A stretch of DNA of 64,000 nucleotides from Verrucomicrobiales bacterium (GTDB taxonomy: Bacteria > Verrucomicrobiota > Verrucomicrobiia > Limisphaerales > UBA11320): positions 1 through 64,000 of the forward strand of contig JAEUHE010000179.1 of the NCBI GenBank assembly GCA_016793885.1, in the 5' to 3' direction. Positions 48,917 to 60,505 of the stretch are shown one piece after another. The position numbers and the translations under genes were made by a program. Each line of letters begins with the position of its first letter. The stretch's first letter is position 1. Under the pieces are notes generated by a model, which saw only the letters and a program-made list of their open reading frames with translations, ran no database searches and had not been told where the DNA came from.

Positions 48917-49211
48917 AGGCGAAAAACCTGCCCGATTCGGTTTCATCAGGGAAGGCAGAAGTCGCGGGGGGGAATAAGGGGGGGAGGGTGTGAGGCTGGT
49001 CAAGCGAAGGTAATCACACCCAACGCGCTCTCGTTGCAGATTTCGGTTAAAGTCGAATTGGGTTCGTTCCGATAGTGAAATCAGCGATGTGAGGTGTTCG
49101 GTTTTCTGACCGACCGATGCACCACAGTGGGACTGTCAATCCGACCATCTGGTTTTGCGCAGCTCGAGCGATTCCAAGACCGCTGCCGACGAACGAGCCA
49201 ACCCTAGAGTG

Positions 49212-49859
49212 ATGAACATGCGTTTAGTAAAACAAGAACGGGGATTTACCCTCATCGAGATGATCGGTGTGCTGGCGATCATCGGTATCCTAGCAGCGGT
49301 GCTCGTTCCGAAAGTGATGGATGCGGTGGCTCGGAGCAAGGTCAGTGGAACAGCGCTGATCTATAACACCCTGCGAACTGCGGCGGTGGACTACTATTCC
49401 AAGAGTAACGCGTTTCCCGTGCGGAACGGTACCGGAACCGCGGATACCGCCGTCGCGGCCGGTCGGTTTGACGCCGATCTGGTCATCGGGGGCTTCATTG
49501 ATCGTTTGGTCAGCGTTCCTCTCGGCAGCCTCCTGACGTCTGGCGCACTGACGGCCCGCACTCACGTGCGCAGCCGGACCGCACAGGTCTCCGGCACCGT
49601 CACGGTAACCGCCGCCAACAGTGGCAACAATTTTGACCTCGACAACAATACCGCCACCTCCGACTTCTCCTCCGGTATTGTCATCGTCAGCCTGATGATT
49701 CCAGGGGTGCCGCTGAAGGATGCGATCTCCCTCAATCTTCTCATCGACAACGTGAACAATAACGGCAGCACTGCGTCGGACAACCGCGGGCGGTGCATCT
49801 ATTCAGCGCCGGCGGCGAACGGAACGGTCACGGTCTACCTCTACATCGCCCATCAGTAA
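49212..49859 (+). CDS. Prepilin-type major pseudopilin-like protein (system subunit 1)
   Basis: A 215-residue type IV pilin-like protein. The prepilin peptidase site is ERG|FTLIEMIGVLAIIGILAAV, with Glu at mature position 5 and a standard hydrophobic helix. The periplasmic part is Thr/Ala/Asn-rich and low in charge (SGTVTVTAANSGNNFDLDNNTATSDF), without the Asp/Glu calcium site that GspG has. Start ATG at 49212 follows an AGAG-containing stretch. It is the first gene of the cluster and is followed by a terminator-like hairpin before the ATPase gene. The likely role is as main filament subunit. A function beyond that is inference. Confidence 0.9.
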   Translation: MNMRLVKQERGFTLIEMIGVLAIIGILAAVLVPKVMDAVARSKVSGTALIYNTLRTAAVDYYSKSNAFPVRNGTGTADTAVAAGRFDADLVIGGFIDRLVSVPLGSLLTSGALTARTHVRSRTAQVSGTVTVTAANSGNNFDLDNNTATSDFSSGIVIVSLMIPGVPLKDAISLNLLIDNVNNNGSTASDNRGRCIYSAPAANGTVTVYLYIAHQ

Positions 49860-49991
49860 CGGGGCCTCCCGTCCATGAGCCATCTGTCCAGGTTCGAATT
49901 CCTGCGGAATGCGTCTCTAGAGACCCGGCTCGGGAAACCCGGACACGAAGCCTTGCCCCGAATCCCGCGCTTACAGCCTTTCGAAAACAAC

Positions 49992-50033
49992 GCGGCTCCG
50001 ATGGCCCTTAGCCCTCGGGGCCGCAGTTTTCCT
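49992..50033 (+). terminator. Terminator-like hairpin between the pseudopilin and ATPase genes
   Basis: GCGGCTCCGA (49992-50001) pairs with TCGGGGCCGC (50015-50024) over 10 bp with one T-G wobble, followed by AGTTTTCCTTT. It lies about 130 bases after the pseudopilin stop and 30 bases before the ATPase start. A partial terminator here would make much pseudopilin message and less message for the machine proteins, as expected for a filament subunit. Confidence 0.65.
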
Positions 50034-50063
50034 TTCAACCCTTAGCCTACCTATTCGTTACTC

Positions 50064-51737
50064 ATGGCTGCGACTTCCCCCTCGCCACGACTCGGTGACT
50101 GGCTCCTGAACCAGGGTCACGTCTCCCAAACCCAGCTCGACCTTGCGCTGCGCGAGCAGAAGCGCAAAGGCGGCCTGTTAGGAGAGGTGTTGCTCGAGTT
50201 GGGCTTTGTCGAAGAACAGTTGCTGGCTTCGTTCCTGGCATCCAAGACCCAGGGCGAACAAATCACTCTGGGTAACCGTTCCATTCCCCCTGAGGTGATC
50301 CGGCTGGTTCCCCAAACCCTGGCTCGGCGGTTTACTGCGATTCCAGTGGAACTGGTCGATGGCACCCTCAAGGTTGCGATCTCGGATCCCCTCAACGTCA
50401 TCGCCTTCGACGCGATCGAGCAATCCACCCAGCTTCCGGTGGAGTTTGTCGCCGCCACCGAGGGCGATGTCCTGCAGTCCATCGATCGCTGTTACGTCGA
50501 GGGTCAGCGGCTCGACCAGCTGGTCGATGAGTTGCTGAAGATGGGCACGGAGCGGCTGGCGACGACGACCGAGTCGGATGCCCCGATGATCCGGCTGGCC
50601 GACCGCATCATCAACGAAGCGATCCTGATGGAGGCGAGCGACATCCATATCCAGCCGGAGGAAAAGTATCTGCGTATTCGGTGGCGGAAGGATGGTATTC
50701 TGCAGCCTGGCTACCTGATGCCCAAGGAGCTGCAGGCAGCATTGATCGCGCGGTTTAAGATTCTCGGCAAGATGGACATCGCGGATACCCTAAGGCCGCA
50801 AGGCGGGCGCACCACCGTTACCGTGGGTGGTCGCGAGGTAGGATTACGGTTGTCGAGCCTACCGACCTCCTACGGCGAGAGCGTGGTTCTGCGGCTGTTG
50901 GATCGATCGGACAAGCGCTTGGACCTCCAGCGCCTGAACATGCCTCCCGACATGGAGCGCCGGTTCAAGGAACTGCTCGAGCGTCCCCATGGAGTGATTC
51001 TGGTCACAGGCCCCACGGGTAGCGGCAAAACCACCACCCTCTACACCGCGCTGGGGCAGATCAACGCAGCGGAAAAGAGCATTTTCACGCTGGAGGATCC
51101 CATTGAGTATCAGCTTCCACTCGTGCGGCAGACCCAGATCAACGAGACGGTAGGACTCACCTTCGCCGATGGGTTGCGAACGCTGCTTCGTCAGGATCCA
51201 GATGTCATTCTGATCGGAGAGACGCGCGACAAGGAGACCGCGCAGCTAATGGTGCGGGCCGCCCTGACCGGTCATTTGGTGTTCTCGACCTTGCACACCA
51301 ACGATGCTCCGGGAGCCATCCACCGATTGATCGACCTGGGCGTGGAGCCATACCTTATCGCCCCGACGCTCGCCGGAGTCATCGGGCAGCGTCTAGTCCG
51401 CCAGCTCTGTCATGAGTGTCGCCGGCCTCTAGCGAATCCGGAGGCGGCTCTCGCCAAGCTGCGCCTTAAGCCCGCGGGAGATCTACCAGTCCAGCTCTGG
51501 GAACCCGTTGGATGCCCAACGTGTCGTCAAACGGGTTACACCGGGCGTCTGGGTATCTATGAGTTGCTGGCTCTGGACTCCAGCCATCAGGGGCTGATCG
51601 CGATCGACAATGATGAGGAGCGGAGGCGCCGTATCGTAACCGAGGCCGGCTTTGTGCCCATGCTGCAGGATGGGCTCAACAAGGCCATGCGGGGCCTAAC
51701 GACACTGTCGGAGGTGCTCCGAGTGACGCAACTGTAG
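50064..51737 (+). CDS. GspE/PilB-family assembly ATPase
   Basis: A 557-residue hexameric secretion ATPase. The N-terminal PilB-type domain (LGDWLLNQGHVSQTQLDLAL...) is at about 5-150. The catalytic core has Walker A GPTGSGKTTTLY near residues 316-327, the Asp box region with SIFTLEDPIEY, Walker B DPDVILIGETRDKETAQ near 380, and the His box FSTLHTNDAPGAIHR near 410. A zinc-binding module with CHECRR and CPTCRQTGYTGRLG lies near 450-495, as in GspE and PilB but not PilT. It powers extension of the pseudopilus. Start codon ATG at 50064, 13 bases before the next gene at the far end, gives a compact operon with the platform protein. Confidence 0.97.
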   Translation: MAATSPSPRLGDWLLNQGHVSQTQLDLALREQKRKGGLLGEVLLELGFVEEQLLASFLASKTQGEQITLGNRSIPPEVIRLVPQTLARRFTAIPVELVDGTLKVAISDPLNVIAFDAIEQSTQLPVEFVAATEGDVLQSIDRCYVEGQRLDQLVDELLKMGTERLATTTESDAPMIRLADRIINEAILMEASDIHIQPEEKYLRIRWRKDGILQPGYLMPKELQAALIARFKILGKMDIADTLRPQGGRTTVTVGGREVGLRLSSLPTSYGESVVLRLLDRSDKRLDLQRLNMPPDMERRFKELLERPHGVILVTGPTGSGKTTTLYTALGQINAAEKSIFTLEDPIEYQLPLVRQTQINETVGLTFADGLRTLLRQDPDVILIGETRDKETAQLMVRAALTGHLVFSTLHTNDAPGAIHRLIDLGVEPYLIAPTLAGVIGQRLVRQLCHECRRPLANPEAALAKLRLKPAGDLPVQLWEPVGCPTCRQTGYTGRLGIYELLALDSSHQGLIAIDNDEERRRRIVTEAGFVPMLQDGLNKAMRGLTTLSEVLRVTQL

Positions 51738-51750
51738 AGAGGCTCGCGCC

Positions 51751-52956
51751 ATGCCAACTTATGCCTTCACCGCCATATCAGAGAAGGGCCTCGAATACAC
51801 CGGCCAGGAGGAAGCCATGTCGGAGGTCGCCCTGGAGATGCGGTTTCGCAGCCGCGGCCACTGGCTAGCGAAAGTCAGGGAGGCACGCCCAGGACTCGCC
51901 TCAGGCGCAGGATTCACCAGAGGCATTCCCGCCCAGGTTCTGACGGAATTCTTTTTCCAACTCTCGCTCCAGCTGCGAGCTGGGATTCCGCTGGTGACTG
52001 CGCTCAGCAACGACATTACCGAGAACGCTCACCCGACCCTTCGAAAGGTCATGTTGGACCTGGTCGAGCGCGTCCAGTCTGGTCAGACGCTGAGCAGTGC
52101 TTTGTCCATGCACCCGCGGTCGTTTCCGCCTCTCGTCGTCAATTTGATTCGAGCGGGTGAGGCGAGCGGGAAGCTCTCCGAGACCTGCAATCAGGTTCGC
52201 TTGTATCTCGAGTGGTGCGATCACCTTCGCGCGGATGTGCGCCAGGCGCTCATCTATCCGATGTTTATCCTCGGTTGCGCTTTAATGTTCGTTGTGGTGG
52301 TCTTCACGTTCTTGGTTCCGCGGTTCGCCAAACTCCTAACGGAGCTGAACATCCCGCTGCCGGGGCTGACTCAGGCAGTTCTGGGAGTGAGCCAGTTCTT
52401 CGTGCAATATTGGCTGCAGATGCTGCTGGCTCTGGGGGCAGCCGCCGTGGGCTTCAAATTGGTGGTTCGATTCTCGCTGGCGCTCGCTACGGCCATTGAT
52501 CGCTTCAAGCTGGCAGTGCCGTTGCTGGGGCCCATGTGGAAAATGGTGGGCCTCTCCCGATTCTCTCAGAACCTCGCGATCATGTATCAGGCAGGTTTGC
52601 CCTTGTTGGACTGCCTCGATCTCACCCGAACACTGACCGGCAACCTGGTGATCGAGCAGGCCATCGGAGATCTTCGCCAAGCGGTCAACGAGGGGCGTCA
52701 AATGCATACGGCCATGACTGCTCATCCGATCTTCGCCGGCATGCTGGTGCAGATGGTTCGGGTCGGGGAGAACACCGGAAGCCTGGGCACCGCGCTTGAA
52801 AACGTCGCCGCGTACTACAACGAAGTGCTTCCACGTCAGATCAAGCGGCTCTTCACTTTGATAGAGCCGATTCTGATCCTCTTCCTGATTGGTTTTGTTG
52901 GGATCATCGCGCTCTCCATTTTTATGCCCATCGTCAGCCTGCTAACCGTGCAATAA
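51751..52956 (+). CDS. GspF/PilC-family inner-membrane platform protein
   Basis: A 401-residue platform protein of type II secretion or type IV pili. It has two copies of the T2SSF helical domain (one around AQVLTEFFFQLSLQLRAGIPLVTALSNDI, one around FSQNLAIMYQAGLPLLDCLDLTRTL). Membrane spans are at about 165-200 (LIYPMFILGCALMFVVVVFTFLVP), 210-240 and 365-398 (IEPILILFLIGFVGIIALSIFMPIV). The family patterns GEASGKL and VGENTGSLG are present. It interacts with the ATPase encoded just upstream. It follows that gene after 13 bases. Confidence 0.97.
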   Translation: MPTYAFTAISEKGLEYTGQEEAMSEVALEMRFRSRGHWLAKVREARPGLASGAGFTRGIPAQVLTEFFFQLSLQLRAGIPLVTALSNDITENAHPTLRKVMLDLVERVQSGQTLSSALSMHPRSFPPLVVNLIRAGEASGKLSETCNQVRLYLEWCDHLRADVRQALIYPMFILGCALMFVVVVFTFLVPRFAKLLTELNIPLPGLTQAVLGVSQFFVQYWLQMLLALGAAAVGFKLVVRFSLALATAIDRFKLAVPLLGPMWKMVGLSRFSQNLAIMYQAGLPLLDCLDLTRTLTGNLVIEQAIGDLRQAVNEGRQMHTAMTAHPIFAGMLVQMVRVGENTGSLGTALENVAAYYNEVLPRQIKRLFTLIEPILILFLIGFVGIIALSIFMPIVSLLTVQ

Positions 52957-52967
52957 CTCAGAATCTC

Positions 52968-53867
52968 ATGAGCTCGATTGTCAGCCTTTTCGCCCAGAAA
53001 GACCACCGGCGGGGCAGGGGAGGATTCTCCATGATCGAGATGATCGGCGTGCTGGCGATTGTCTCCATCCTTGCCGGAATGGTGGGCCCAAACCTCATTC
53101 GGCGGGTCATCGAATCGAATGCTGCGCGGGAGGCCAAAACCCTTCAGACACTCGCTGACGGACTCAGCTCACACGTTCAGGCCTGGCAGACGATTCCCGG
53201 CTCGGCCTCGTGGGTCACCAATGTCAGCAGTTCCTTGGGGCTTAGCCCGACCGACGTGGCCTACAGTGATCCTGCGAATCCAGCAGGAAGCGGGCGTGTC
53301 TATCTGATTCATCCCGCATTCACCCCGTCCAACGGCACCGACCCGCTCTTCACGTCTTCGGCCTCAGGAAGCGTGGCGCCGACCAACGCTAGAATCCTGA
53401 TCATTAGCTGCACCAAGCGAGGTCTGACGATCCCGGTGACAAGCGGCAAAGCGGCTAACACGGCCGGCAATCGGAACCGGTTCGACAATATATGGAACTG
53501 GTCCTTGAATCCATTCACCAAGGCTCCTCCCACCGGCTGGCCAGCAGCCTGGAACGGCAACGGACACCACCTCCACGTTCAGCGCATCAACCTGGCACCT
53601 CACTTTTTTCGCCTAACCGTGAGCAATCCCAGCTTCCCCGGTGAGATCCCGTTTGCCCAGTTCAACCAGAATCCCACCTTTGCCTTTGATGTCACGAACG
53701 CTGTGGATGCCTACTACTTGCGCGGCACGGTGGTGAGGTTCTATCGGCACGACACGCCCTACACGTCGCCTCCGGCCAATCCTGACGAGTTAAACCTGGT
53801 CCATACCGTTCAAGGGCCCGCGAATTTCATCTACGACGGAATTCCCTCGCGGTGGCGGTTACAGTGA
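52968..53867 (+). CDS. Minor pseudopilin (system subunit 2)
   Basis: A 299-residue prepilin-like protein. The peptidase motif is GRGG|FSMIEMIGVLAIVSILAGM with Glu5. After the hydrophobic helix, the periplasmic region (residues 60-299) is unlike known GspH-J proteins but clearly related to the corresponding part of the next gene. Both have a YLIxPxFxPNxG motif, a xRxxIxSxTKRGLTxPxxSG motif, a Trp-rich WxWxxxP stretch with a HLHVxRxxxAxxFF motif, and a final VHxVQGxAxFxxD segment. It starts 11 bases after the platform gene. The shared domain is of unknown function. Confidence 0.85.
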   Translation: MSSIVSLFAQKDHRRGRGGFSMIEMIGVLAIVSILAGMVGPNLIRRVIESNAAREAKTLQTLADGLSSHVQAWQTIPGSASWVTNVSSSLGLSPTDVAYSDPANPAGSGRVYLIHPAFTPSNGTDPLFTSSASGSVAPTNARILIISCTKRGLTIPVTSGKAANTAGNRNRFDNIWNWSLNPFTKAPPTGWPAAWNGNGHHLHVQRINLAPHFFRLTVSNPSFPGEIPFAQFNQNPTFAFDVTNAVDAYYLRGTVVRFYRHDTPYTSPPANPDELNLVHTVQGPANFIYDGIPSRWRLQ

Positions 53868-53876
53868 GCCCGAGCC

Positions 53877-55385
53877 ATGCTCCCGGACCTTCCACCTACC
53901 GTCGGCCGACGCGCTCGTCTCAACTCCGGGTTTAGCCTGGTCTGGGTCTTAGTGCTGCTGGGCGGCATGGCTGCGGTTGCCTTGGCTCTTCTGCCAACGA
54001 TCGTCGCCCAGGCGCGCAAGACCGCCCAGGCCGAGGATGCGATCCTCTCCCAGTTGACGGAGGCCCTCCAAAAATCGGTTCTCTCGACTCGTACCGTTCC
54101 GGGAGCGAATACCTGGGCCCAAGCTGTGGTGCAGGTCAGCGGAATGAATTTGATCGCGGTGAGGCAGGTCTTCCCCCAGTTTCCCTCCGAACTCACCAGC
54201 CGCCGGATTTACCTGATCGATCCGCGCTTTCAACCGAACTTGGGTTCGGGCATCCTGCCGTTCAGCCAGCCCAACGGTGGCTTGGATCCATCCGTGCCCA
54301 CGCAGGTCCCCAACGCCTTCGCGCGTGTCATGATTGTCAGCAGCACCAAGCGGGGGCTGACGCTGCCGTTCTCATCCGGTGTCGCCACCCAGCCGGCTTT
54401 CGATAGCTTGTGGGATTGGACGCCCAGCCCCTCCAACCCGGACCCACCGGTGGCCGCCGGGTTCGGCGCCGCATGGCAAGGCAAGGCGTCCCATCTGCAC
54501 GTGGCGCGCCTCAGCTTCGCGGAGATGTTTAGCTACGTTGTATTTCGCTCTCTCGCCTTCGCAACCGACGGCGGCACGCCGATCGCCGCGCCTTCCACCG
54601 TCGCTCGATACCTGCTGCAGGGAACTCCTCTGAGCCTTTACGCTCCCTCGAATGGAGCGTTGGTCCAGCGGCATGTGGTCCAGGGGGACGCTCATTTTGA
54701 TTTTCGATCTCCGCTGCCACCGATCGGTTATTGGTCTTTTGATGAAGGGGCTACCTCGATCATCTCAACCAACCTGGGAACTGCGGGTGTGCTCGCCAAC
54801 GCCGCTCTCTCAGCAGGTGCGAGCGTGTCCAATTGCACTCTGGTGGTGCCCGCATATACCGGCTTCAGCGCCACCAACACGGCGTTAGCATTGAACGGCA
54901 CTACCGGCTTCTCGGATGTCTCGCAATCCCTGATGAATGGATTGAACGAGTTCTCCCTGGCCTGCTGGGTGAATCCGACCAGCCTTTCGGCCTTGAGCCC
55001 CGCCGGTCTTTGCGGCCAGCAAGGAGTCGCGGTGCTGGGGTTTGCTGCCGGCGGCGACCTGGTCGTTACCACCCAGCGCGCTGGGCAGGCGGCCATCGCC
55101 TATCCCTTTCCCATGGGCGAGTGGCATCATGTGGCGGTCACTGCGGATGGTCAGGCCTTGCGGATCTACGTGGATGGCACTCTTCGCGCCGCCGGTGGTC
55201 AGCGGTTGAACCGTACGGATTTTGGCAGCTCGATGCACTCTTTTAGAATCGGTGGCGGGGGACTTTTTGACGGTGGCGGCAACTACTTCCAGGGAAGTTT
55301 GGACAATGTTTCTCTCTTCGATCGCGCCCTCTCCGCCGCTCAGATTGCTCGCCTGATGTTGAACCAAGGTCCTTCCGGACTTTGA
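53877..55385 (+). CDS. Large minor pseudopilin with C-terminal LamG domain (possible tip subunit)
   Basis: A 502-residue protein. The prepilin-like start is NSG|FSLVWVLVLLGGMAAVALAL, so mature position 5 would be Trp, not Glu. GspK tip pseudopilins also lack Glu5. Residues 60-275 are related to the preceding gene (RRIYLIDPRFQPN, IVSSTKRGLTLPFSSG, HLHVARLSFAEMFSYVVF, YLLQGTPLSLY). Residues 280-502 form a LamG/concanavalin-like domain: GYWSFDEGATS at the start, LNGTTGFSDV, EFSLACWVNPTS, GEWHHVAVTADGQALRIYVDG and GSLDNVSLFDRALSAAQIARL. LamG domains bind carbohydrates or proteins. It follows the previous gene after 9 bases. Confidence 0.85.
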   Translation: MLPDLPPTVGRRARLNSGFSLVWVLVLLGGMAAVALALLPTIVAQARKTAQAEDAILSQLTEALQKSVLSTRTVPGANTWAQAVVQVSGMNLIAVRQVFPQFPSELTSRRIYLIDPRFQPNLGSGILPFSQPNGGLDPSVPTQVPNAFARVMIVSSTKRGLTLPFSSGVATQPAFDSLWDWTPSPSNPDPPVAAGFGAAWQGKASHLHVARLSFAEMFSYVVFRSLAFATDGGTPIAAPSTVARYLLQGTPLSLYAPSNGALVQRHVVQGDAHFDFRSPLPPIGYWSFDEGATSIISTNLGTAGVLANAALSAGASVSNCTLVVPAYTGFSATNTALALNGTTGFSDVSQSLMNGLNEFSLACWVNPTSLSALSPAGLCGQQGVAVLGFAAGGDLVVTTQRAGQAAIAYPFPMGEWHHVAVTADGQALRIYVDGTLRAAGGQRLNRTDFGSSMHSFRIGGGGLFDGGGNYFQGSLDNVSLFDRALSAAQIARLMLNQGPSGL

Positions 55386-55584
55386 TGGAGTAGCTTCTCC
55401 GACACTGCCTCAAGACCAGCGTCCGACCATCGGTCAGGCTCCTCTCTTGTTCAGAAAACACTTTTGCGCACGGGTTGGCCGCAGAGTTGCTTGGAGAGGA
55501 ATAGTGTCGTGCGCGATGCAGAAATTGCCTCTGTCGCGAGCGGTTGACCGTTGATCGGACCAATCCTCTTCGCGCACACCAACT

Positions 55585-57048
55585 ATGAACCGAAGCATCT
55601 TGTCCCTGAGTTGGTTGAACGGGCAGGTGAAAGCCGTCCATGTGCGGGGATCCAAGCTTGTGTCCAGCTGGGTCTGCCCGACGGTGACGGATCGGGTCGA
55701 GGAGTTCGAACGGATCCTGCGGGACGCCGTTTCCAACACCGGATTCCGCGGTAAGGACGTGATGGTGGTGGTCGAAAACCGAAGCCTGCTGTACCATCTC
55801 CAAGAGGCTCCCATCGGCCGAAGAAGCCTCGTCCGAAGCTTCCTTGAGCGGCGAGTGCAGCAGAGTCGATTCTTCGAGGACCAGCCGGCCTGTTACGGGC
55901 TGAACACCCCGGTCCCGATGAAAACCAATCAGCGTTTCCTGCTCACCCTACTGCCTCGGGATTGGGTGACCAGCATTCGAGAGGCTTGCTTGGCGCAAGG
56001 ATACAACCTGAGAGCGGTCTTCGCCCCCGCGACGGTCCTCACTCGGCAAATCCAAAAGCTCACGGCCTCCACTAACAAGCCAATTCTCCTCAGTGCTGAT
56101 ATCGGAGGCTCCATCGCCCTGGTGGTGGGACGGAAAGACCAAGTCTGGTTTGCTCGTTCGGTGGCCATGTCCGCGGCACCGTCTAGCAGTCCGCTTGATC
56201 CTACGAAAGCGGGGCCCACTCTCAAAGTTGTCAAGGCTGTTGCGCGTCCAACGGAACGACTGGAACAGGAGCTGAACCGCACCCGATTGTTCTGTCAGCA
56301 GCAGTTCGAATCAACCCTGGACGAATTCTGGGTGATTGGGGAGACAGCGAAACGGGCTCTGGAGAACGTCAAGGTGCCTTCCGGAATGAGCCAGCAGGCC
56401 ACGGACGGTGCCGAGAATGAATTTCTGCTGGCCTGGGAAACATCACAGCTATCGCCTCGCACCCCGGGGAACCTGCTGAGTCAATTTCACAGCGAGGATG
56501 TCTACCGACGGCGGCTGGCGGCTGTCGCAGTCGCTGCCGGCCTTGTTTTCTCCGTCGGGTTCAGTGGGTGGATCAACCACTTGATCAAGGACCGGGATCT
56601 GCAACTGCAGAGCATTCAGTCTCAGATCGAGGAATCGCGGACACAGCATGAAGAAACTTTAAGCGTTTGGAAGATCGCCCTCCAGAAGCAGGCCTTTGTC
56701 GCGTCCGTCGGGAGCCCCACGGATCCGCCTGTCCCGGTTCTCTTGCTACGGTATCTCGGGTCGCATCTTCCCGAAACCTTTGTTTTAGGGCGCCTCGACC
56801 TCAACCGTGCCACCAATCGATGGTACTTCCGCTTGGAAGGGCGTCAAATGGTCTCAACGATGGACTTCTTCACCGCCTTGGAGGCGTTTGAGCGTGAGCT
56901 GACCAACAGCGTTTTCAAAGCCCAGATTGCCGCCAGCACCCGAACTCGCCTTTTTCAGGAGTCTTCCACTGAGATTCGGGGGCTAACCGCAGCCGGGTCC
57001 GGGAACGATGGCGAGAAGCCGTTTTTTGTGGAGGGAGTGATTCCATGA
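55585..57048 (+). CDS. GspL-like (PilM-PilN type) assembly platform protein
   Basis: A 487-residue protein. Residues 1-300 have the PilM/GspL actin-like fold, with SLSWLNGQVKAVHVRG at the start and ILLSADIGGSIALVVGRKDQVWFARSV as the phosphate-2-like strand. A membrane span follows at about 308-333 (LAAVAVAAGLVFSVGFSGWINHLI). The last 150 residues are periplasmic with a coiled-coil segment and a ferredoxin-like part (FVLGRLDLNRATNRWYFRLEGRQMVS). That is the GspL topology, i.e. PilM and PilN joined. A gap of about 200 bases separates it from the LamG gene, so a second promoter may lie there. The next gene overlaps by 4 bases. Confidence 0.83.
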   Translation: MNRSILSLSWLNGQVKAVHVRGSKLVSSWVCPTVTDRVEEFERILRDAVSNTGFRGKDVMVVVENRSLLYHLQEAPIGRRSLVRSFLERRVQQSRFFEDQPACYGLNTPVPMKTNQRFLLTLLPRDWVTSIREACLAQGYNLRAVFAPATVLTRQIQKLTASTNKPILLSADIGGSIALVVGRKDQVWFARSVAMSAAPSSSPLDPTKAGPTLKVVKAVARPTERLEQELNRTRLFCQQQFESTLDEFWVIGETAKRALENVKVPSGMSQQATDGAENEFLLAWETSQLSPRTPGNLLSQFHSEDVYRRRLAAVAVAAGLVFSVGFSGWINHLIKDRDLQLQSIQSQIEESRTQHEETLSVWKIALQKQAFVASVGSPTDPPVPVLLLRYLGSHLPETFVLGRLDLNRATNRWYFRLEGRQMVSTMDFFTALEAFERELTNSVFKAQIAASTRTRLFQESSTEIRGLTAAGSGNDGEKPFFVEGVIP

Positions 57049-57797
57049 GCGACACGCCTGTACCTCGGGTTCCACCGGCTCCGGCGCAGCCGTCGCTCCC
57101 TCAACCGTCACCCGCCTTGAGCAAGGAGCCGCTCACGGTTGCCTCGCCCACGGATAAACCGGCCGTGAGCCGGATGCAATCCTCCGGAAAACCTCTGTCC
57201 TTGGTCGAGCAATGGGAACGTCGGCTGACCAGCATGACCTCCCTCGGCATCGGAATCGCGGTCTGCCTGCTGCTTACGCTGCACGCTTTGGTTCTCCAGC
57301 TGCCGAGGGCATCCCTGGCGCAGGTGGTGGCTGCTCGCGAAGAAGCCGCGGGCCTGGCGCAGGATATCGTGGATGCAACCGGATCCCAAGTGGTCGACCA
57401 AGCGAGCCTCAGCAACCAGGTCGCCCGTGCCGAGGATTTCCTGATCCCCAAACGAGAGAATGTTGTGGGGCTCGTGGTTGAAATAGAAAAGCTGTGTCGC
57501 CTGTCCGGCTGGAAGCCGGACCTGGTGGTGCGGACTTCCAGCGATCGAGTTCAGGCGGTGGACGGTGCGGTGATTCTTCCCGCCACGCTGCGCCTCCATG
57601 CTCAACCCGTAGCCGAAGGGGTGGCATCGTCCTTCGAGAGGCTCGTCAGCCTCCTGAGCCAAATTGAGCATTTCCCCCACAAAGTGGAAATTGTATCGCT
57701 CAGCGCTGTCGCCGAGAAGGACTCGTCCGTTTCGTCAGTCATCGTCGAACTCCAGTTCTGGACGCGGAAAGCCAATGACAAAGCTGCTGCAAAATAA
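57045..57797 (+). CDS. GspM/PilO-like inner-membrane protein
   Basis: A 250-residue bitopic protein. The first 60 residues are Pro/Ser-rich and likely cytoplasmic. A span follows at about 65-88 (MTSLGIGIAVCLLLTLHALVLQLP). The periplasmic part has a helix and then a ferredoxin-like pattern (VGLVVEIEKLCRLSGWKPDLVV, LPATLRLHAQPVAEGVASSFERLVSLLSQIEHFPHKVEIVSLS) typical of PilO/GspM-type proteins. It starts in an ATGA with the GspL-like gene and overlaps the next gene by 23 bases. The assignment relies on topology, fold pattern and order, since the sequence itself is poorly conserved. Confidence 0.7.
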   Translation: MSDTPVPRVPPAPAQPSLPQPSPALSKEPLTVASPTDKPAVSRMQSSGKPLSLVEQWERRLTSMTSLGIGIAVCLLLTLHALVLQLPRASLAQVVAAREEAAGLAQDIVDATGSQVVDQASLSNQVARAEDFLIPKRENVVGLVVEIEKLCRLSGWKPDLVVRTSSDRVQAVDGAVILPATLRLHAQPVAEGVASSFERLVSLLSQIEHFPHKVEIVSLSAVAEKDSSVSSVIVELQFWTRKANDKAAAK

Positions 57798-58356
57798 AGT
57801 GGCGGTGGCCTTCCTGCTGGCAACCGCTGTGGGGATGGCCGCCTTCCAATTCAATCTGTTCACGGGATCTGGTCCCTTGCTCGTCTCCGGAAGGGAGGCG
57901 GACAGCGAAGCGCCGCCCGAAGGCGATGAAGGGGAAGGACTGAGCACGACCAACTCCCCCCCACGCTACCTGACGGGGCTCCGTGACTGGCCGCAAATGC
58001 TCATCAGCGAGCCGTTGCGACGGGATCCCTTCCAGCCAAGGCCCCTGCAGTCTGGTGACCTTGCAGCCCATGCACCTTTGGCACCAAGCCGAACGAACTT
58101 TCGACTGCAGGCAATCAGTCGACACCAAGAACGGCGCTTTGCTGTAGTCGATGGTGGCGTGTTCGGCGAAGGCGACCGGATCGCCGAGTTCAGAATCATC
58201 CTTATTGATTCTCACTCGGTCTTGCTCCGGGGGCACGATGGGACCGAGAAGAAGCTCGAACTACACTTTGACGGCGCCACCGCTAGACCCGGTCAGACCA
58301 CGGATGAAGGCTCCGCCACTGATCCGTCCGACCCAACTGAAGCAGAACCGCGATGA
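57775..58356 (+). CDS. GspC/PilP-like periplasmic connector
   Basis: A 193-residue protein with an N-terminal membrane anchor (residues 8-27, VAVAFLLATAVGMAAFQFNL), an acidic linker (ADSEAPPEGDEGEGLS) and a small beta domain of GspC-HR/PilP type near 105-165 (FRLQAISRHQERRFAVVDGGVFGEGDRIAEFRIILIDSHSVLLRGHDG). Such domains bind the N0 domain of the secretin and bridge the two membranes. I start it at the ATG at 57775, which lies inside the preceding gene. The longer frame from 57664 is a shadow of that gene. The next gene starts in the stop codon of this one. Confidence 0.78.
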   Translation: MTKLLQNKVAVAFLLATAVGMAAFQFNLFTGSGPLLVSGREADSEAPPEGDEGEGLSTTNSPPRYLTGLRDWPQMLISEPLRRDPFQPRPLQSGDLAAHAPLAPSRTNFRLQAISRHQERRFAVVDGGVFGEGDRIAEFRIILIDSHSVLLRGHDGTEKKLELHFDGATARPGQTTDEGSATDPSDPTEAEPR

Positions 58357-60029
58357 GCGAGTGGCACACTCCAAAACCGATGAATACCATGATCGAACCT
58401 TCCCCGAGCCCCCTGGCTCGAGCCATGCGACAAGGCCGCGCCCTGAGTTGGCTTCTCCTGCTGCTCTGCCTGGTTACCCCGAGCTGCAAGAGCGGCTCCG
58501 CCAAGAAGAAGGTTGATGTGGCCGCCGCAAAGCCCGCAGCGTCGAAGCCCCCTCAGCGCCTCGAAAGCGAGTTTGCTCCGGCACCTCCACCCAAGACGAC
58601 ACCTCCGACCGCTCCGCTTCCCATCCCTCCACGGACTTCCCTCCTGCCACGTGACGCCCAGGCGGCCGCGGGTGGGCTTCCGGGTGGCGACCGGACCTAT
58701 AGCTTCAGCGCGAAGGGACTCGATCTTCAAGATGCACTCGCTCTCTTCGCTCGCACCTTCGATTTGAACATCGTTCCCGATCCCGACGTCGCCGGATCTA
58801 TCACCGTCGATTTCAAAAACCTCCCCCTCGACAAAGCGATGGACGCCTTGCTGGAAGTCTTCGGTTACTACGCCGAATACGATCGTGGATTGATTCGTGT
58901 GAAGAGCGTCACCAGCGAGGTGTTTACCATCGATTATTTGCGGTTGGTGCGTGGTGGAACCGGAAACAGCTCGGCTAACATCGCCTCGGGAGGATCTTCC
59001 GGGTCGAGCGGTGGATCCTCCTCGGGTGGATCCAGTGGCTCTTCTGGCGGGGGTGGAGGCGGAGGTGGCGGCGACGGCGCCGGTGTCTCCATCAACCAGA
59101 CGGATACCGTCAAATTCTGGGAAGAACTTGATGAGCAAATGAAGGCGTTGATTTCCGACAAGGGCAAGTACGTGATCAATCGTACCGCGGGTCAGGTCTT
59201 CGTCAGCGACCAGAAGGCGACCATGGATCGGATTCGAAATTTCCTGAGCCATGTGCGTCAGACCCTTCATCGGCAAGTGGAGATCGAAGCCCAAATCTTC
59301 GAAGTGGTACTGAACGATGAATACCATCTGGGCATCGACTGGCAGAACGTGATGGGCAAGGTGGGTGACTACTATGTCTCCTCCGGTGGCGGAACGACCC
59401 TCATCCCCACGTCCCGGATGATCGTGGACTCTCCGATTGGAGGCAACGAACCTGCGGCTCCCGCGCTTTCAATGGCCATGGGACGGAAGGACGCCCGCGC
59501 CGTGGTGGACGCACTGAAGCAAATGGGCACCCTCCGAATCGTGTCGCAACCGCGCATCCGGACCCTGAACAACCAGGCCGCGATGATCAAAGTGGGCCTC
59601 GATAAGCCGTTTTTTCGTCGTACGACTCAGGTCATCGCTACCACGGGAACACCCATCACCCAAAGCAGCGTTGAGATTCAGGTGGTGACGGTCGGAACCA
59701 TCCTATCCATCACTCCGCAGATTTCGGATGACGGCCATGTGAGCATGGACATTTCGCCGATTATCACCCGACTCATCCAGACGGCCCGCGGTCCCGACTC
59801 CTCGACCGCCCCGGAAGTCGACATCAAGCAGACTTCCTCCCTGGTGCGCATGAAGGACGGAAACACGGTCGTGATCGGGGGACTGATTCAGGACGAATCC
59901 TACAAGACGGTCCGGAAGGTGCCATTCCTCGGAGACATCCCGATCATCGGACGGCTGATGACCGGGAATTACGATAACAAGCGCAAAACCGAGCTGGTGA
60001 TCTTCATCACCCCGACGATCGTCGACTGA
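58353..60029 (+). CDS. Secretin (GspD/PilQ family), lipoprotein-like start
   Basis: A 558-residue outer-membrane channel protein. The N-terminus has a signal with a lipobox-like LVTPSC near residue 50. A Lys/Pro-rich linker is followed by an N0/STN-type domain at about 110-185 (YSFSAKGLDLQDALALFARTFDLNIVPDPD). A long Gly/Ser run lies at about 205-245. Residues 250-320 are an N-domain (VKFWEELDEQMKALI...), and the C-terminal 240 residues are the secretin domain, with VEIEAQIFEVVLND, RIVSQPRIRTLNNQAAMIKVG, ISITPQISDDGHVSMDISPII and the end block VVIGGLIQDESYKTVRKVPFLGDIPIIGRL. Only one N-type repeat separates N0 from the channel, fewer than in GspD. Start ATG overlaps the previous stop as ATGA. 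Confidence 0.95.
   Translation: MSEWHTPKPMNTMIEPSPSPLARAMRQGRALSWLLLLLCLVTPSCKSGSAKKKVDVAAAKPAASKPPQRLESEFAPAPPPKTTPPTAPLPIPPRTSLLPRDAQAAAGGLPGGDRTYSFSAKGLDLQDALALFARTFDLNIVPDPDVAGSITVDFKNLPLDKAMDALLEVFGYYAEYDRGLIRVKSVTSEVFTIDYLRLVRGGTGNSSANIASGGSSGSSGGSSSGGSSGSSGGGGGGGGGDGAGVSINQTDTVKFWEELDEQMKALISDKGKYVINRTAGQVFVSDQKATMDRIRNFLSHVRQTLHRQVEIEAQIFEVVLNDEYHLGIDWQNVMGKVGDYYVSSGGGTTLIPTSRMIVDSPIGGNEPAAPALSMAMGRKDARAVVDALKQMGTLRIVSQPRIRTLNNQAAMIKVGLDKPFFRRTTQVIATTGTPITQSSVEIQVVTVGTILSITPQISDDGHVSMDISPIITRLIQTARGPDSSTAPEVDIKQTSSLVRMKDGNTVVIGGLIQDESYKTVRKVPFLGDIPIIGRLMTGNYDNKRKTELVIFITPTIVD
58985..59080 (+). repeat. Gly/Ser-coding low-complexity tract in the secretin gene
   Basis: This in-frame tract encodes alternating Ser-Gly blocks followed by a run of Gly. 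The codon usage is dominated by GGx and TCx. It forms a flexible linker between the N0/STN domain and the next N domain of the secretin. Such tracts can vary in length by slippage. Confidence 0.75.
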
Positions 60030-60094: not shown

Positions 60095-60505
60095 CTAGTG
60101 GCAGCCGCAGCCACTACCACAGCTGCCGTCTTGGAAATCTTCCTCGCCTGGAGTCCGACCCAGTTCGAACGTCTTGGTGACGTAGTCAGCAATGAAGCGT
60201 TGGATGGTTTGGATCTCCTGCTGAGCCTGCAGAAAATCCTTGATGATCGCGTTCTGGAGAACCGCGTCACGCTTCCCCTCGAAATCGGCCACCTCTTCCT
60301 GAGTAATGGTCCCACCGGTCTGCTGGCGATGTTCCAGCATCTGCCCCTGTTCCACCAGCGCATTGTATTGATCGCGGGCTGAGTCGTTGGTCAGGAAAGC
60401 GTCGACCCTTCCCTTAAGACTCAGAAAGTCGGGATGGGTCGTGATTGTTTCACAAAGCTCGACCGTCTTTTTTTGAATTGCCGACTCTTGAGTGCTGGTT
60501 TGCAT
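60095..60505 (-). CDS. YlbF/YmcA-family protein with Cys-rich C-terminus
   Basis: A 136-residue helical protein of the YlbF/YmcA family (PF06133). The family core is visible (TITTHPDFLSLKGRVDAFLTNDSARDQYNALVEQGQMLEHRQQTGG, then a second helical half ending in ADYVTKTFEL). In Bacillus the YlbF-YmcA-YaaT (Ric) complex promotes mRNA processing and binds iron-sulfur clusters. Here the protein ends in GSCGSGCGCH, which has three Cys and a His. That tail is a possible metal or cluster ligand and is absent from simple YlbF proteins. No RicT (YaaT) homologue is in the window. It is alone on its strand between the secretin and mpl. Confidence 0.8.
   Translation of the reverse strand: MQTSTQESAIQKKTVELCETITTHPDFLSLKGRVDAFLTNDSARDQYNALVEQGQMLEHRQQTGGTITQEEVADFEGKRDAVLQNAIIKDFLQAQQEIQTIQRFIADYVTKTFELGRTPGEEDFQDGSCGSGCGCH

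Follow-up and report, generated by a model that had tools for sequence, protein, structure and literature searches.

A pseudopilin lacking Glu5 and carrying a C-terminal LamG module: a candidate filament-tip protein of a type IV system in a Verrucomicrobiales bacterium

Introduction

Can a pseudopilin that lacks the glutamate at mature position +5 (Glu5) and ends in a LamG domain be the first, tip-located subunit of its filament, or does the missing residue reflect relaxed constraint on a duplicated gene? Within a type IV filament each subunit uses Glu5 to neutralise the N-terminus of the one above, and a Glu5-less subunit caps the tip complex (PMC10191384); PilX and GspK are such Glu5-less capping subunits (PMC7541494). 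A hydrophobic residue at +5, a large size and a 3' position have been proposed as the signature of first subunits, and in TcpB the exchange E5V left the start of the pilus intact and abolished efficient joining of a growing pilus (PMC5207764). The window studied here, a stretch of 64,000 nucleotides from a Verrucomicrobiales bacterium (contig JAEUHE010000179.1), contains an open reading frame at 53877 whose product appears to combine both features.

Results

Organization of the locus

The features of the filament locus are listed in Table 1. All genes from 49155 to 58353 lie on the same strand, and the ORF at 53877 is the last pilin ORF, ahead of the GspL-like gene. Its product (502 residues) is larger than the major pseudopilin (234 residues). 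The GspL- and GspM-like proteins had no family match, their orthologues included, and a GspL-like profile had none in the PDB. Convergent to the secretin gene, at 60095–60505 on the minus strand, lies a gene for a YlbF/YmcA-like protein (Com_YlbF) whose C-terminus is rich in Cys (CGSGCGCH).

Table 1. Features of the filament locus and of the ORF under study (positions in the window)
Feature	Position	Strand	Basis or remark
Major pseudopilin-like, Glu5 (GFTLIE; GspG/PilA-like N-terminus)	49155..49859	+	PF07963 2.7e-07; TIGR01710 1.6e-09, under cut-off
Assembly ATPase, GspE/PilB type, MshEN domain	50064..51737	+	PF00437 1e-127; PF05157 1.5e-16; TIGR02533 5.7e-159
Inner-membrane platform, GspF/PilC type	51751..52956	+	PF00482 7e-53; TIGR02120 9e-86
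Minor pseudopilin, Glu5 (GFSMIE), tandem paralogue	52968..53867	+	PF07963 2.3e-05; 31% identity to 53877 ORF, E 1e-30
Glu5-less (Trp at +5) pseudopilin with fused LamG	53877..55385	+	ATG start, 502 aa
Class III (prepilin) leader MLPDLPPTVGRRARLNSG	53877..53930	+	Cleavage after Gly18 predicted from sequence
Pilin moiety: predicted helix alpha1 (mature residues 2-53) and beta-rich head	53931..54719	+	Homology to 52968 ORF, alignments, low-confidence model
TGG codon, Trp at mature +5 where Glu is expected	53943..53945	+	Trp in 4/4 genus orthologues
LamG/concanavalin-like module	54720..55382	+	PF13385 core, residues 341-491
GspL-like (PilM+PilN fusion-like)	55585..57048	+	Position, size, one central transmembrane segment; no family match
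GspM/PilO-like	57045..57797	+	Position, one transmembrane segment; no family match; position conserved in L071
GspC/PilP-like, HR-type domain	57664..58356	+	NF041515 4.6e-04 and PF16537 0.003, both under cut-off; ORF called mechanically, its real start probably more internal
Secretin, best match MshL type	58353..60029	+	PF00263 1e-42; TIGR02519 242 bits vs 250-bit cut-off

The genome is unusually rich in type IV filament systems, with 45 N-methyl motifs (two of them in this locus), three more T2SS-type loci with GspK on contigs C256, C152 and C76, and many PilB/PilT-family ATPases.

The scores for machine type are mixed, and this bears on where a LamG module at the tip would be placed. The ATPase and platform score highest to GspE and GspF of the T2SS, an HR protein of GspC-like type and one GspL-like fusion protein are encoded downstream, and PilT or PilY1 family matches are absent among the scanned proteins of the system. 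These features would suit a T2SS-like, non-extending pseudopilus, in which a periplasmic LamG tip would contact substrates or the secretin gate and act as a substrate-recognition cap and not as an adhesin; minor pseudopilin tip complexes are known to bind substrates (PMC6211770). The secretin, on the other hand, scores highest to the pilus-type MshL, the ATPase has an MshEN domain, several PilT-family ATPases are encoded on other contigs, and neither the GspL- nor the GspM-like protein gave a family match. We regard this placement as unlikely, though a serious contender. MshQ, suggested as an analogue by the MshL-like secretin, was dropped, as no link to LamG was found in the literature searched.

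N-terminus of the protein

The protein begins with MLPDLPPTVGRRARLNSG followed by FSLVWVLVLLGGMAAVALALLP, that is, an 18-residue basic leader with Gly at −1 and a single hydrophobic segment after it, in which hydrophobicity peaks at residue 21. Basic leader, Gly at −1 and adjoining hydrophobic helix are together the hallmarks of a class III signal peptide. Cleavage in the context GRRARLNSG/FSLVW, after Gly18, would give a mature start of F1 S2 L3 V4 W5, Trp5 being residue 23 of the precursor. The mature N-terminus named in the original prediction, with its want of Glu5, agrees with this reading of the sequence. An A24 prepilin peptidase locus is encoded in the genome, and judging from the leader the enzyme would in all likelihood remove these 18 residues. 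In L032:7956-9452, L070:5959-7773 and many relatives in the order, including Glu5 relatives, Ala replaces Gly at −1, a substitution that is frequent in the family.

The Pfam scan found no match of the protein to the N-methylation motif PF07963 (IPR012902), which contains Glu5, whereas both neighbouring pseudopilins match it. The tested orthologues were likewise unmatched.

The LamG module

The C-terminal region matches Laminin_G_3 (PF13385) at residues 341–491 with E 2.1e-24, well above the Pfam cut-off, and the LamG domains of the orthologues exceed this cut-off too (83.8, 61.9 and 47.2 bits). The proposals that a Trp+5 pseudopilin is fused here to LamG, and that about 220 C-terminal residues are LamG/concanavalin-like, thus stand. 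Other LamG relatives in the scan were weak and sub-threshold. Against solved structures, a profile of four orthologous LamG domains found LNS domains of neurexin, a module of an arabinanase and a protein with an S-layer domain. A match to TafC (NF052521) was rejected as an identity, being due to the shared LamG domain only and far under the NF052521 cut-off; a literature search on TafC yielded no explanatory paper.

The fused domain belongs to a subtype with the motif IGGGGxFDGxGNxFxGxxDEV, which is also seen in other large and seemingly secreted proteins encoded by this genome; its closest relatives there are 35–37% identical. A grafted module is expected to share its subtype with other proteins of the genome, so this recurrence counts for grafting, and from its sequence the LamG looks like a locally available module joined to a pilin. 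Between orthologues the pilin part (41–61% identity) and the LamG part (42–59%) are about equally conserved, which argues that LamG is not a decaying appendage. It seems reasonably likely that LamG serves as a ligand-binding module; a glycan as the ligand is a fair guess to which we would give slightly less than even weight.

Structure models

Modeling of the full-length protein by AlphaFold2 with a four-sequence alignment gave a pLDDT of 38.5 with LamG unfolded. For the mature pilin moiety alone the pLDDT was 58.4, and the model has a 52-residue alpha1 helix and a beta-rich head. With this low-confidence model (pLDDT 58.4) Foldseek found no match under 0.001 and no pilin, and VIA-align had no pilin among the matches shown, the best (Z 5.6) being unrelated beta structures over residues 197–263. 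When a profile of the pilin moiety was searched against the PDB, the matches, to geopilin/PilA, were marginal only (E 0.06–0.4). Viral contigs were also searched for relatives that might deepen the alignment, and none were found; a scan of genome contigs gave a single match, L032.

Duplication and loss of Glu5

The pilin head is 31% identical to the product of the adjacent upstream ORF at 52968 over its full length, and the 53877 protein is a tandem duplicate of that product. Both genes are present at the same place in three genomes of the genus (G002/L032, G003/L012/L071 and G004/L011/L070), where the orthologues, 42–45% identical overall, retain Trp5, pilin head and LamG; on this ground the ORF at 53877 is not a chance one. 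A pilin-head profile was run against 320 genomes of the order, and 94 family members were collected. Glu occupies position +5 in 82 of them and another residue in the remaining 12. When the search was widened to the class, the pilin family turned up elsewhere, without any additional close orthologue.

Three orthologues from family f14 show what is retained over a longer distance. That of G073 begins YAALL (Leu5) and that of G074 YALLV (Val5), both with LamG; that of G076 begins FALLG (Gly5) and is without LamG. At the usual LamG site the G076 orthologue (L069:5402-6394) has a short tail, DDDWEWYRDIRDGRIRWRWRGWRRDWHGRGNDDDHWDW, in which Trp, Arg and Asp are very abundant. The original emphasis on Trp at +5 holds therefore throughout the genus and not beyond it: as read from these sequences, what is conserved is the want of Glu5, and Trp is a habit of one genus. 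The gene order of the genus (g1) is kept in G073, and in complete loci the Glu5-less gene lies immediately before the GspL-like gene.

For the tree, mature residues 1 to 7 were removed, and with them the trait columns. The seven Glu5-less orthologues from g1 and f14 form one clade (support 98), and its sister clade consists of the seven Glu5 partners (support 96); sister clades that each span g1 and f14 imply a single duplication, older than the split between the two families. LamG occurs in 6 of the 7 members of the Glu5-less clade and in none of the 87 other family rows (Fisher test 1e-6, a value that reflects a single origin and hence is no independent test). Most other family members (L072–L109) have a C-terminal extension of about 90–130 residues, whereas in g1 and f14 the Glu5 partner (here 52968-53867) lacks this extension and the Glu5-less protein has LamG in its stead.

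Outside this clade there were at least three additional losses of Glu5, each time without LamG, which makes about four losses in all by parsimony. The members concerned, with Gly or Phe at +5, belong to tandem sets (L080:2308-3486, L104:3857-4702, L107:3191-4225, L103:2422-3408 and L083:2103-3245), one per set of tandem pseudopilins, and few of them end their cluster. Because Glu5 was lost elsewhere in the family, often in genes not last in their cluster, its loss alone is no proof of a role at the tip. Such repeated losses are what one would expect if the protein were a modular minor pilin positioned in the filament shaft or the membrane, in which the glutamate disappeared through relaxed constraint after duplication; a location in the filament body has been considered possible for modular pilins given a flexible linker (PMC8179133). 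Relaxed constraint fits poorly with a Glu missing in 7/7 orthologues from two families, with pilin and LamG modules that both remain conserved, with a Glu5 partner retained in all cases beside the Glu5-less orthologue, and with the place of the gene, constant in complete loci, ahead of the GspL-like one. We consider this explanation improbable.

Relation to GspK

The original prediction drew on GspK, which lacks Glu5, caps the tip and carries a large inserted domain. Part of this analogy stands: the three true GspKs that this genome encodes have Gly, Ile and Ala at +5. They match PF03934 on contigs C256, C152 and C76 and not on that of the locus (C179), two above the cut-off and one just below. 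The product of 53877 is no GspK by sequence, as PF03934 had no match in it at E 0.1 and none in three orthologues at 0.5. The parallel between the inserted domain and LamG does not hold, because the GspK insertion lies within the pilin sheet and LamG is appended C-terminally; alignment with the Glu5 paralogue 52968 revealed no large insertion in the pilin head.

A genuine but diverged GspK would account for the hydrophobic +5 residue, the large size and the position ahead of the GspL-like gene. That the GspKs on other contigs do match PF03934, that the extra domain is C-terminal instead of inserted, and that the head duplicates a neighbouring Glu5 pseudopilin make this very improbable. By analogy, the protein would work like GspK or PilX without being GspK.

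Discussion

A probable first subunit of the filament

All three traits of the proposed first-subunit signature are found in the product of 53877, and they point, with the Gly, Ile and Ala of the GspKs of the same genome, to a first, tip-located subunit. For the tip assignment in the original prediction the support is comparative, namely the joint occurrence of Glu5 loss and LamG in one clade, the place as last pilin gene and the signature itself; the single origin of that association, the G076 protein, Glu5-less yet without LamG, and PilC of Streptococcus sanguinis, a lectin pilin that retains Glu5, speak against it. Judged by its sequence features, the protein is probably incorporated as the filament tip. 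The fuller reading, that a type IV filament starts here, at its tip, with a duplicated minor pseudopilin displaying a LamG module, appears likely, if slightly less so.

The proposed course of events is as follows. A minor pseudopilin would have been duplicated, and one copy would have lost Glu5 and gained LamG. After removal of the 18-residue leader by prepilin peptidase, this protein could not neutralise, for want of Glu5, the N-terminus of a subunit above it and could only start a filament. Glu5 pseudopilins would then dock beneath it, as in GspK/PilX systems, with LamG facing outward at the tip; its ligand may be a surface carbohydrate or protein, or a secretion substrate inside the periplasm.

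More tentatively, the nucleating cap (the role of GspK/PilX) and the tip effector (the role of PilC or PilY1) might be merged in one polypeptide, through duplication of a minor pseudopilin, loss of Glu5 and grafting of a house-type LamG lectin, and the filament might use it, at the secretin or beneath it, to catch enzymes bound to glycans or polysaccharide that is insoluble. We hold this extended version to be speculative.

If the tip reading is true, the protein is a convergent GspK replacement made by duplication of the neighbouring gene, and a natural single-protein version of the split in Streptococcus sanguinis between PilA (no Glu5) and PilC (lectin). With the 52968/53877 gene pair one can cleanly test whether, as the rule has it, a Glu5-less pilin can only be the first subunit.

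Comparison with known systems

The architecture of a pilin with PF13385 is already known, and what is new is that this subunit also shows a conserved Glu5 loss; the literature searched held no description of LamG and a conserved Glu5 loss in one pilin. We are probably dealing with a variation on a known design and not with a new kind of machine. PF13385 is among the commonest modules on pilins in an InterPro census of modular pilins (PMC8179133), whose members with this domain share with our protein a pilin N-terminus joined to PF13385. That census requires the IPR012902 motif (PMC8179133), so the present branch would escape it, and censuses of modular pilins built on the Glu5-containing PF07963 overlook such candidate tip subunits.

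Like GspK of the T2SS and PilX of the type IVa pilus, the protein has a hydrophobic or small residue at +5, exceeds the major pilin in size, and is encoded by the last minor pilin gene, beside GspL in the T2SS order. It differs from them in lacking PF03934 and the inserted alpha domain, in its C-terminal LamG and in a head copied from a Glu5 neighbour. TcpB and CofB of type IVb pili resemble it as large modular minor pilins that start the filament; unlike it they keep Glu5, and their re-entry into the filament has been proposed to trigger retraction (PMC5207764). The closest parallel in module is PilC of S. sanguinis, a lectin-module pilin with demonstrated lectin activity and Glu5 present (PMC9934059), in which a concanavalin-like module is likewise grafted C-terminally onto a pilin and a location at the tip has been proposed. 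PilC has in addition an Ig-like module, and the Glu5-less role falls there to the separate pilin PilA (PMC9934059), whereas here a single polypeptide combines both traits, and the system has an outer-membrane secretin.
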